From positions 1,178,001 to 1,242,000 of the forward strand of contig NZ_CP006271.1 of assembly GCF_000737595.1 (NCBI RefSeq): a stretch of 64,000 bases of DNA, read 5' to 3'. The position numbers and the translations under genes were made by a program. This document shows positions 24,193-28,837 of this stretch, in pieces (within the stretch, counting starts at the first letter, position 1; every line of letters begins with the position of its first letter). The DNA comes from Synechococcus sp. KORDI-52 (lineage in GTDB: Bacteria; Cyanobacteriota; Cyanobacteriia; PCC-6307; Cyanobiaceae). A model generated the notes under the pieces. The model worked only from the letters and a program-made list of their open reading frames with translations. It made no database searches and was not told the origin of the DNA.

Positions 24193-24787
24193 TCAGGCGG
24201 TTGAGCCTTTTCAGTTCGGCCGCGGTCACCTCACGCCACGCTCCCGGTTGAAGACCGGTGAGGTCCAGCGGAGGACCGTTGTCCATCAAGTCGATGCAGC
24301 AGCGCACCAAGCGCAACGTCGGCAGGCCGACAGCCGCCGTCATCCGGCGCACCTGCCGGTTTCGCCCCTCAGTGAGGGACAGCAGCAGCCAGCTGGTGGG
24401 GATGGCAGCGCGATAACGAATCGGAGGTGTTCTCTCGGGCAGCTGCGGTTCGTCTGGCCCTTGAAGCCAGCGTGCCTGCGCCGGCAGGGTGCGACGCCCC
24501 TGAACTACAGGGCCATCGCGAAGCTGTTGCAGTTGATGGGGGTTGGGGGTTCCTTCCACCTGGGCCCAGTAGCTGCGCCAGTGTCCAAAGCGAGGGTCGG
24601 TGAGGCGTTGTTGCAGGCGCCCGTTGCTGGTGAGGATCAGCAGGCCTTCACTGTCGGCGTCGAGGCGTCCGGCGGCGTACACATCGGGTACATCAACAAG
24701 GTCCCCCAGGCAGCTCCATCGGCTTCCGGCCTCCGGTGTGAATTGACTCAACACCCCGTAAGGCTTGTTCAGCAGCAGCGTCGTCAA
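24140..24787 (-). CDS. rluE: RNA pseudouridine synthase, RluE/RsuA type
   Basis: Converts uridine to pseudouridine in rRNA. The protein shows LLNKPYGVLSQFTPEAG, the catalytic segment AAGRLDADSEGLLILTSNG with the active-site Asp, and LTEGRNRQVRRMTAAVGLP. The layout and lack of an S4 domain match RluE (23S U2457). The start is chosen as TTG at 24787, just after a small upstream frame, because the homologous region begins there; a TTG at 24832 is the alternative. The C-terminal tail is a Ser/Arg/Gly run overlapping arsM. Confidence 0.85.
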   Translation of the reverse strand: MTTLLLNKPYGVLSQFTPEAGSRWSCLGDLVDVPDVYAAGRLDADSEGLLILTSNGRLQQRLTDPRFGHWRSYWAQVEGTPNPHQLQQLRDGPVVQGRRTLPAQARWLQGPDEPQLPERTPPIRYRAAIPTSWLLLSLTEGRNRQVRRMTAAVGLPTLRLVRCCIDLMDNGPPLDLTGLQPGAWREVTAAELKRLNRLISSSSSSGLRRGGPQRG

Positions 24788-24788
24788 C

Positions 24789-24881
24789 TCAGCCTGCGTT
24801 TTCCCGCATTCTCCACAGGTTGACCACACCAATGGAGATCAGAAGCAGACCGATATCCATGCTCAACGGTGGAAGAATCAC
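24789..24881 (-). CDS. Possible small membrane peptide upstream of rluE
   Basis: A frame of up to 30 codons (GTG at 24881, or ATG at 24860 for 23 codons) encodes one hydrophobic helix, MDIGLLLISIGVVNLWRM, ending in a basic/polar tail. Its stop TGA lies directly before the TTG proposed as rluE start, so coupling is possible. The size and one-helix form are like other cyanobacterial small membrane proteins. No clear ribosome-binding site is visible, so it may be chance. Confidence 0.3.
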   Translation of the reverse strand: MILPPLSMDIGLLLISIGVVNLWRMRENAG

Positions 24882-24989
24882 GGCAGGGGAGTGAGAGGTC
24901 GGCGTCGGAGCTTAAGGGCTCTGTTCTCTCATCGGGGTGCGAGTGGCCTTCTAAACTGGCTCCAGCAAGACAGATTTGGCTGCCGGCGC

Positions 24990-25259
24990 ATGATCGAAAC
25001 CTCGGGAGTGATCGAGAAGGAACAGGGCAACGGGTTCTATCTGGTCACCCTCGAGCAGCCTGCTGGCCACCAGTGCCTGTGCAGAGCCGCTGGAAAGCTC
25101 ACCAAGTTCCGGATCAAATTGTTGGCTGGGGACAAGGTGCTGGTGGAGATCAGCCCCTACGACCTCACCCGCGGCCGGATCACCTATCGCGAGCGCAATG
25201 CTGGTGCTCCCGGCGGTCGTCCCGGTGGCAACCGCCCCGGTGGCCCCCGTCGTCGTTGA
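24990..25259 (+). CDS. infA: Translation initiation factor IF-1
   Basis: An OB-fold factor that binds the ribosomal A site during initiation. It has 89 residues. The start MIETSGVIEKEQGNGFYLV is followed by LTKFRIKLLAGDKVLVEISPYDLTRGRITYR, the family signature. After it come about 20 extra residues of Gly/Arg/Pro (GGRPGGNRPGG), a basic tail not found in the 72-residue E. coli protein. Confidence 0.93.
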   Translation: MIETSGVIEKEQGNGFYLVTLEQPAGHQCLCRAAGKLTKFRIKLLAGDKVLVEISPYDLTRGRITYRERNAGAPGGRPGGNRPGGPRRR

Positions 25260-27106: not shown

Positions 27107-28558
27107 TCAGCGCTGCAAAAAAGCCGGCAATTCAGGCGTTTTCAGTCGGATTACGGCGCCAGCTCCGTCTTCCACGGCCTCCAAGGGAAGGCTTGGTCCG
27201 CGCCATGGACCAGCGCCTGAAAGCTCCTCTTCGGTCTCCTGCTCCTGAGAGCGCAGCACGTAGGGCTCGGCCACCGACCACGACCTCGCAAAGTCCATCA
27301 GCAGCGGGTCTGCCGGCGCGAAGACAAAGGAAGGCTCCCTGGGAATGGCTTCGCGGGCGGCCAGGTCTGGGGTCATCCGCACGGCCCGCGTGATGCCTTG
27401 TACAAAGCGGCTGCGGGTCACAACGGTTGTGAGGTAAGCCACCACCCGCAGGCGTGGCGCATCAAAGCCCTCCGCGCACATGTCGATGCTCACCAGCCAA
27501 TCAGCCTCACCGCCCTGGAAGGCCTTCAACCGTTCCGTCGCTTGGGGGCTCTGGGAATGAATCAAGTCCACCCGGCTGCCGTCGTCGATCAACACCCGGG
27601 TGATGGCCTCGGCGTGGCTGATATCACGGGCGATGACCAGGCCAGCGGCCTGGGGTTGGCGCTCGCGCAGCTGATTCAGCTTCTGTTGGGCTCGCAGCAG
27701 CACCTGCTGACCAATGCTGCTGCTGTCGGCCAGGCGAATGGCGCGACGCAGGTTGCGGGCACGCCAGCTTTCCCGTTGTTCGGCAGATAAAGGGGAGACG
27801 TCGCGGTCGGGGTGCCCTTCGCGGCTGTGTTCCACCCAACCGTCCTGGAAACGAAACTCCAGGGGGCGAACATCACCAGCTGCGATCAGGTCTCTGGGTT
27901 CCACGCAAAGATCCGGACGGATCTGCTCCACCCATCCACCATCGTCCAGTCGCACGCGGATGCGTCGGGCCGCGCAGAACGCCAGGTTGTCGGCACGAAA
28001 GGGGGTCCCTGTCAGTCCCAGGCGCAGTCGGGCCGGGCTGGTCAGGTCCAGAAAGGTCTGCCCCCAGGCGGTGGCGTCCGGTTCGTCGGGGTCGACACCG
28101 AGATGGTGGGCCTCATCGGCGATGGCCATGCAGGCGCTCAGGCCCCATTGCTCGAGCCGTGCCCCCAGAGCCTCGCGCTGGCGACCGGCACCCTGGTAGG
28201 TCACCAGCAGGCCATCGGCTCCCTGGTTCTGGTTCGGCGGGCAGGGCCACTCCTCCAGCCGCAAGCCAAGACGCGACGCGGCAGTTTTCCACTGATTCAG
28301 GATGGACGTGCGGTGGCAGAAGACCACGAAATGGCCCAACCGGCCTTGATCGCGCATGGCGCGGAATCCCAACAGGGCCCCGAGGGTTTTGCCTGCCCCC
28401 GGTCCTGCAAACACCAGCAGGTCGCGGCTGCTGCCCTCAAGCTCTAGCCGGCGCCGCAGCAGCTGGATCAGCTGTTGCTGCCACTGCCGCGGTTGGACAG
28501 CACCTGGATCTGGCGCGGCATCCTGCCTGGGCGGGAGGTTGAAGCTGACGGCGGAGAT
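27107..28558 (-). CDS. DEAD/DEAH-type superfamily 2 helicase-like ATPase with unusual start
   Basis: Motifs in order: QPRQWQQQLIQLLRRRL (Q-motif-like), AGPGAGKTLGALLGF (Walker A), ADEAHHLG (DEAH, motif II), LGLTGTPFRADN (motif III), then a C-terminal RecA domain. The latter has GLVIARDISHAEAITRVL, SIDMCAEGFDAPRLRVVAYL and RFVQGITRAVRM (motif VI). The first ordinary start, GTG at 28414, lies inside the Walker A region and would remove the conserved Q region. The frame is open to a stop near 28620. A GGAGGT ribosome-binding sequence (28562-28567) stands 3 bases before an ATC codon (28558), used here as the provisional start. The function is unknown beyond nucleic-acid-dependent ATPase. Confidence 0.75.
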   Translation of the reverse strand: MSAVSFNLPPRQDAAPDPGAVQPRQWQQQLIQLLRRRLELEGSSRDLLVFAGPGAGKTLGALLGFRAMRDQGRLGHFVVFCHRTSILNQWKTAASRLGLRLEEWPCPPNQNQGADGLLVTYQGAGRQREALGARLEQWGLSACMAIADEAHHLGVDPDEPDATAWGQTFLDLTSPARLRLGLTGTPFRADNLAFCAARRIRVRLDDGGWVEQIRPDLCVEPRDLIAAGDVRPLEFRFQDGWVEHSREGHPDRDVSPLSAEQRESWRARNLRRAIRLADSSSIGQQVLLRAQQKLNQLRERQPQAAGLVIARDISHAEAITRVLIDDGSRVDLIHSQSPQATERLKAFQGGEADWLVSIDMCAEGFDAPRLRVVAYLTTVVTRSRFVQGITRAVRMTPDLAAREAIPREPSFVFAPADPLLMDFARSWSVAEPYVLRSQEQETEEELSGAGPWRGPSLPLEAVEDGAGAVIRLKTPELPAFLQR

Positions 28559-28660
28559 ATCACCTCCCGGGAAGATGAGTCTTTTTAACCATTCTTTTGT
28601 GCTGTGGCATCTCTACTCTCCGGCCATCAGCTCCATCGGGATCGGGTCCCGCCCATCGCC

Positions 28661-28837
28661 ATGGCCCAAAGTCGTTTCTTCAGCAGCCCCCTCGATCAGC
28701 AGCGCGATCAACTCGATGACTGCTGGGACCTCGATTGCGATATCGATCCTCTGATCCTTCGTGCCCGCGTTCTTCATCGCCGCGGAAAGGCGGACTGGGC
28801 CCTTGGCCTGGAACAGGAAGTGCTGCCGATCGTTTGA
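28661..28837 (+). CDS. Conserved hypothetical small protein, 58 residues
   Basis: MAQSRFFSSPLDQQRDQL, then an acidic stretch (DDCWDLDCDIDPL) and a basic helix ending in LEQEVLPIV. It is soluble, and no motif is recognised. The in-frame upstream ATG at 28604 would overlap the helicase leader, so 28661 is preferred. A 9-bp hairpin spans its stop codon and probably ends transcription. Confidence 0.6.
   Translation: MAQSRFFSSPLDQQRDQLDDCWDLDCDIDPLILRARVLHRRGKADWALGLEQEVLPIV

Follow-up and report, generated by a model that had tools for sequence, protein, structure and literature searches.

Where does translation begin in a gene whose reading frame offers no ATG, GTG or TTG ahead of its conserved N-terminus? 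The question is raised by a helicase gene on the minus strand of a 64,000-nucleotide stretch of the Synechococcus sp. KORDI-52 genome (hereafter the window, in whose coordinates all positions are given). The helicase frame is open from 28612 to a stop codon at 27109-27107. Its earliest canonical start codon is GTG 28414, which is codon 49 counting from an ATC at 28558-28556 and lies downstream of P23, R24, W26 and Q27. The initial annotation, made from the sequence of this locus, had remarked that no canonical start precedes the conserved N-terminus; this is correct, and use of the GTG would remove the PRxWQ motif. It had also placed a GGAGGT sequence before the ATC and a 16-codon frame ending in TGA at that sequence, at positions that we confirm (Table 1). 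Four options had been left unranked, namely an ATC start, coupling to the short frame, frameshifting and a sequencing error; comparison of orthologues supports the first and argues against the other three as general explanations.

A RadD-like helicase of picocyanobacteria

The window protein matches the Pfam domains ResIII (2.6e-12) and Helicase_C (5.7e-08), which marks it as a superfamily-2 helicase. Its predicted structure is of low confidence (mean pLDDT 65.4, with residues 1-14 below 50). Searched with Foldseek, this weak model gave RadD chains as the first eight PDB matches (7r7j, 6jde, 8h5y and 8h5z; E 1.2e-13 to 2.0e-12), at 17-19% identity and with TM-scores of only 0.38-0.45. At E <= 0.001 a sequence search of the PDB matched RadD (YejH) alone (8.8e-06). 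Despite this likeness the protein scored 33 bits against the NCBIfam RadD equivalog model, short of the cut-off of 720, and hence we call it RadD-like rather than RadD. A PADLOC search yielded only partial, low-scoring matches to helicases.

The window genome, a single contig of 2,572,069 bases, contains one full match to the helicase protein and one short, weak match. Of 400 genomes sampled across the family, 235 gave a match to the gene at E <= 1e-30, as did 148 of the 251 that are at least 90% complete. Among 59 relatives searched, only family members gave long matches; in the wider class the helicase matches were short and weak or absent. Relatives with names comprise Synechococcus, Prochlorococcus, Cyanobium, Vulcanococcus and uncultured cyanobacteria. 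Two genomes gave interrupted matches, one (G032, locus L031) as two fragments, one of which holds a TAG, and the other (G076, loci L163 and L211) with a single internal TAG; each may be a pseudogene or an assembly error.

Table 1. Features of the helicase locus (window coordinates)
Feature	Position	Strand	Basis
TAG, in frame, upstream bound of the helicase frame	28613..28615	-	Sequence and frame reading
16-codon frame MPQHKRMVKKTHLPGR and its terminal TGA; functional role improbable	28560..28610	-	Conserved among close relatives only
GTTAAAAAG, copy of the conserved upstream element GTTARAAAG (DNA/RNA); candidate -10 promoter box	28581..28589	-	Ortholog contexts
GGAGGT, Shine-Dalgarno-like; GGAGG-to-ATC gap of 4 nt	28562..28567	-	Seen in sequence
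ATC, putative translation start of the helicase; initiator tRNA would put Met here	28556..28558	-	Ortholog start column
GTG, earliest canonical in-frame start codon; unlikely to be the start	28412..28414	-	Located after the conserved PRxWQ motif
RadD-like superfamily-2 DEAH-box helicase, 483 codons plus stop	27107..28558	-	Pfam ResIII and Helicase_C; best fold matches are RadD chains

The probable start codon in the orthologues

The start region was examined in 170 loci, which are a selection of related sequences whose counts are not independent. Thirty loci (L001 and L003-L031) came from whole-genome searches, the named loci L032-L111 were the best 80 of 125, and 60 stretches were chosen among the matches listed from the family search, with high identity and small genomes favoured. 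The motif PxxW[QK]...PG[AS]GKT, present in all 170 loci, anchored the frame. The start column was taken as the codon four before a conserved SF and was called only where it encodes Met or Ile, as it does in 161 loci. Merging of duplicates left 128 distinct contexts of 105 nt, with ATC in 68, ATT in 10, ATG in 50 and ATA in none. The ATC/ATT column of the 78 contexts coincides exactly with the window ATC, and the other 50 have their ATG at this same column, in keeping with the ATC start that had been listed among the options. A sequencing error is excluded by the independent genomes that have ATC or ATT at the same codon, and by the retention of this weak start in dozens of genomes.

Nine loci were left uncalled. 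Eight of these seem to be ATG-type with an insertion (L081, L087, L088, L089, L092, L097, L109 and L111), and the ninth, L166, has an Ile codon one place further up, which does not fit the column. A longer copy of the same gene as L166 (L214) has a doubtful ATC label. The ATC/ATT loci with names belong to Synechococcus (e.g. WH7803, L058, and RCC307, L046), Prochlorococcus (MIT 0701, L052) and uncultured cyanobacteria, and those with ATG to Cyanobium, Vulcanococcus, other "Synechococcus" strains (such as 8F6 and WH 5701) and uncultured cyanobacteria. Loci L030 and L155-L168 were taken as Prochlorococcus on account of their AT-rich sequence and small genomes.

A few records are at odds with their labels. 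One ATC/ATT-type locus labelled Gammaproteobacteria (L078) and one ATG-type locus labelled Bifidobacterium breve (L093) carry the picocyanobacterial helicase gene and are probably mis-binned. The WH 5701 assembly has an ATC-type copy on a 3.1-kb contig (L042) beside its ATG-type copy (L088), which likely reflects mis-binning or contamination.

In a quick tree of 111 different proteins, compared from PxxWQ onward, one branch (SH-aLRT 100) parts 60 ATC/ATT rows from 51 ATG rows, such that the start type changes once; rows among the eight insertion-bearing loci were scored as ATG and L214 as ATC/ATT. The tree is unrooted, and as AUU/AUC starts are rare we infer that the change went from AUG to AUC/AUU. 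A published reconstruction gives 1 of 61,358 ancestral AUG starts as switched to AUU (PMC5622118).

Several properties of the 78 contexts point to ATC/ATT as the start. In 63 of them, and likewise in the window, no ATG, GTG or TTG occurs between the upstream stop codon and PxxWQ. In 45 the frame is closed by a stop 2-10 codons ahead of the ATC/ATT, and 43 of these have no canonical start in between; the first downstream canonical codon falls beyond PxxWQ in 71 of the 78. P23, R24, W26 and Q27 are invariant across a 30-protein alignment (from which L024 is absent; since it takes in no more than 18 codons ahead of PxxWQ, the first residues are missing from some rows, several ATG-type ones and L003 among them). 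The residues that follow ATC/ATT align with those of the ATG-type proteins, and conservation at the protein level, beginning with SF, sets in four codons after it.

The start codon itself is also constrained. Codon entropy is 0.55 bits at the start as against 3.25 bits at the codon before and 3.49 bits at the codon after; ATC or ATT at one codon in 78 distinct contexts, together with this low entropy, is therefore not a matter of chance. In 60 genes the start codon is ATC in 49, ATT in 10, unresolved in one and ATA in none. ATA does occur in each of the 12 other columns where Ile reaches at least 85%, in 1-9 of the 60 genes, and it accounts for 130 of the 434 Ile codons in the genes assigned to Prochlorococcus. 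Pairing in the start region is predicted to be lower than in an in-gene control (0.36 vs 0.61; 76 ATC/ATT contexts, a 22-nt leader being assumed); for the ATG group, assumed leaderless, the values are 0.46 and 0.58 (50 contexts).

Two findings count against a start at ATC/ATT. An SD-like 4-mer is present in only 17 of the 78 contexts (and in 0 of the 50 ATG contexts), and a further in-frame near-cognate codon (ATC, ATT, ATA or CTG) occurs at codon -6 in 31 of the 78. In addition, nine contexts (L024, L031, L041, L044, L116, L118, L121, L138 and L158) have an in-frame canonical codon upstream and seven (L012, L019, L022, L038, L041, L113 and L159) have one between ATC/ATT and PxxWQ, one context having both kinds; translation could start there instead.

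Were translation to begin at a canonical codon further downstream (in the window, GTG 28414), the protein would be shorter and the ATC/ATT would stay untranslated. The GTG is indeed present in frame and is presumably the codon that gene finders would choose. A protein begun there would, however, lose the PRxWQ motif, which does not vary among the 30 aligned proteins and whose P and W[Q/K] occur in all 170 loci, and would lack the conserved SF. The first downstream canonical codon is moreover not shared between contexts, lying anywhere from 7 to 66 codons after ATC/ATT. We consider this explanation extremely improbable. Nor do orthologues begin at the position of GTG 28414, a prospect that the initial annotation had raised, as conserved residues are found upstream of it and ATG-type relatives start at the ATC column.

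Collectively, the comparison of orthologues establishes the position, identity and persistence of the codon at the level of sequence. It gives good support to a start of helicase translation at AUC 28558-28556, and it is thus very probable that initiation at this AUC takes place inside the cell. The helicase would then be a bacterial gene whose start codon belongs to the IF3-discriminated class (AUU/AUC/AUA), with no canonical start to serve the same protein in the window or in 63 of the 78 contexts. Gene finders allow ATG, GTG and TTG, and since they allow only these, the N-terminus of the helicase may be misplaced in databases.

The region upstream of the start codon

The short frame MPQHKRMVKKTHLPGR runs through codons 28610-28563 to a TGA at 28562-28560, and the ATC starts one base after that TGA. 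This arrangement would permit a different reading, in which the short frame is translated and re-initiation or a +1 frameshift at its end feeds the helicase frame. In the window and eight further contexts, all from its close relatives, the short frame is 16 codons long and a single base separates its TGA from the ATC. The remaining 69 contexts have no such frame at this place, the short frame being absent, overrunning the ATC or stopping earlier, so that coupling fails as a general mechanism, and no fused product could be made in the 45 of 78 that have an in-frame stop 2-10 codons upstream. The distance from a conserved upstream element, described below, also takes values in all three frames. 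We regard translation through the short frame as very improbable.

Two related candidates were rejected. A programmed +1 frameshift gene does not fit an upstream frame that is kept in only 9 of 78 contexts, nor the helicase-frame stops just upstream in 45. Read-through of a stop codon was considered for the ten contexts that have an in-frame stop two codons before the ATC and cannot be general.

In 70 of 78 contexts the element in question, GTTARAAAG or a less strict version, precedes the ATC/ATT by 29-32 nt. The spacing is 29 nt in 15, 30 nt in 4, 31 nt in 46 and 32 nt in 5; it has another value in three, and the element was not found in five. Since these spacings fall in all three frames the block is not coding, and we rejected an N-terminal extension encoded by it. 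Candidate roles for the block are a promoter -10 box and a leader element. A scan for sigma-70 promoters between 28500 and 28760 of the window gave none. The pattern GTTARAAAGACYYA has a single site in the window genome and so gives no signal of a regulon there. In five ATC-type loci (L118, L121, L138, L116 and L044) the conserved block itself includes an ATG or TTG in the helicase frame, 13 codons ahead of the ATC, and an N-terminally extended form is possible in these.

A different box is found in the ATG-type loci. CANAAT occupies positions -12 to -7 relative to the ATG in 43 of 50 ATG contexts (ATG-type loci among L059-L111 and L148-L171) and in none of the 78 ATC/ATT contexts. Its position suggests that the helicase mRNAs of Cyanobium, Vulcanococcus and relatives may be leaderless, with CANAAT as the -10 box.

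IF3 and the expected effect of an AUC start

In the model that we propose, the normal initiator tRNA would start the helicase at the AUC to give a protein of 483 residues. Most orthologues in the window's own group, Synechococcus/Prochlorococcus, would likewise start at AUC, or sometimes AUU, following one switch between AUG and AUC/AUU in the history of the family. AUU, AUC and AUA are start triplets against which IF3 discriminates (PMC4611024). On account of this discrimination an AUC start should keep the helicase low or conditional, its translation depending on IF3, on initiator tRNA and on the state of the ribosome. One switch kept through the sampled group, with no return to AUG seen, points to weak or conditional initiation being tolerated or favoured, and a weak start retained so widely may be useful.

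The persistence of ATC/ATT might instead be neutral, the helicase being so little needed that a weak start costs nothing. This alternative accepts the start codon and differs only on selection. It draws on the incomplete occurrence of the gene, also among the more complete genomes, which makes it dispensable, and on the stops that interrupt it in G032 and G076. The core of the protein is nevertheless strongly conserved, and ATG, one base away, is not seen at the column in any of the 78 distinct contexts, a count that stops short of a formal selection test. We consider neutral persistence possible though on the unlikely side.

Starts of the AUU/AUC type are already known in kind from infC. The infC gene of Escherichia coli, which encodes IF3, has an AUU start and is autoregulated. 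The helicase resembles it in that a start of the AUU/AUC/AUA class is kept in evolution and sensitivity to IF3 is expected. It differs in its product, a helicase, and in having AUC more often than AUU. Within the same genus infC was located in 15 of 22 genomes, and in all 15 of these loci its start codon is ATG. Given these ATG starts there is no sign here of an IF3 circuit, and we rejected an autoregulated start of the infC type. A second parallel is pcnB of E. coli, a nucleic-acid enzyme limited by an AUU start. Like the helicase it is not an initiation factor, and it belongs to another protein family.

A more speculative extension concerns both groups. Leaderless mRNAs, according to PMC4611024, require AUG and are antagonised by IF3. 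As leaderless AUG and AUC/AUU starts are both described there as disfavoured by IF3, the family would have exchanged one start sensitive to IF3 for another, with leaderless AUG in the ATG-type loci and AUC/AUU in the other group, and a repair helicase would stay inducible when initiation is disturbed. The distribution of the CANAAT box, and the presence of GTTARAAAG about 30 nt upstream in most ATC/ATT contexts, are in favour of such a scheme. Against it, a review states that IF3 at low level helps leaderless translation and, per one report, is needed for it (PMC9031893). We hold this two-route scheme to be improbable.

In a literature search confined to the best-ranked papers, with few subscription or arXiv papers among them, no title or abstract reports an AUC or AUU start in this helicase or in picocyanobacteria. 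Synechococcus and Prochlorococcus are among the most abundant groups of phototrophs. An IF3-discriminated start kept across many of their genomes would offer a natural system, outside infC, in which to ask whether low or conditional expression is selected for.

Two neighbours of the helicase were also recorded. A small ORF at 28604-28837 on the plus strand, divergent from the helicase, has 77 codons from its GTG and is without a Pfam match; its internal ATG at 28661 sits in a block, GGGCCATGGC, that is common to many aligned loci. About 1.9 kb from the helicase, at 24765-25256 on the plus strand, lies an infA-like gene with an IF-1/eIF-1a domain (Pfam PF01176, 3.5e-16).
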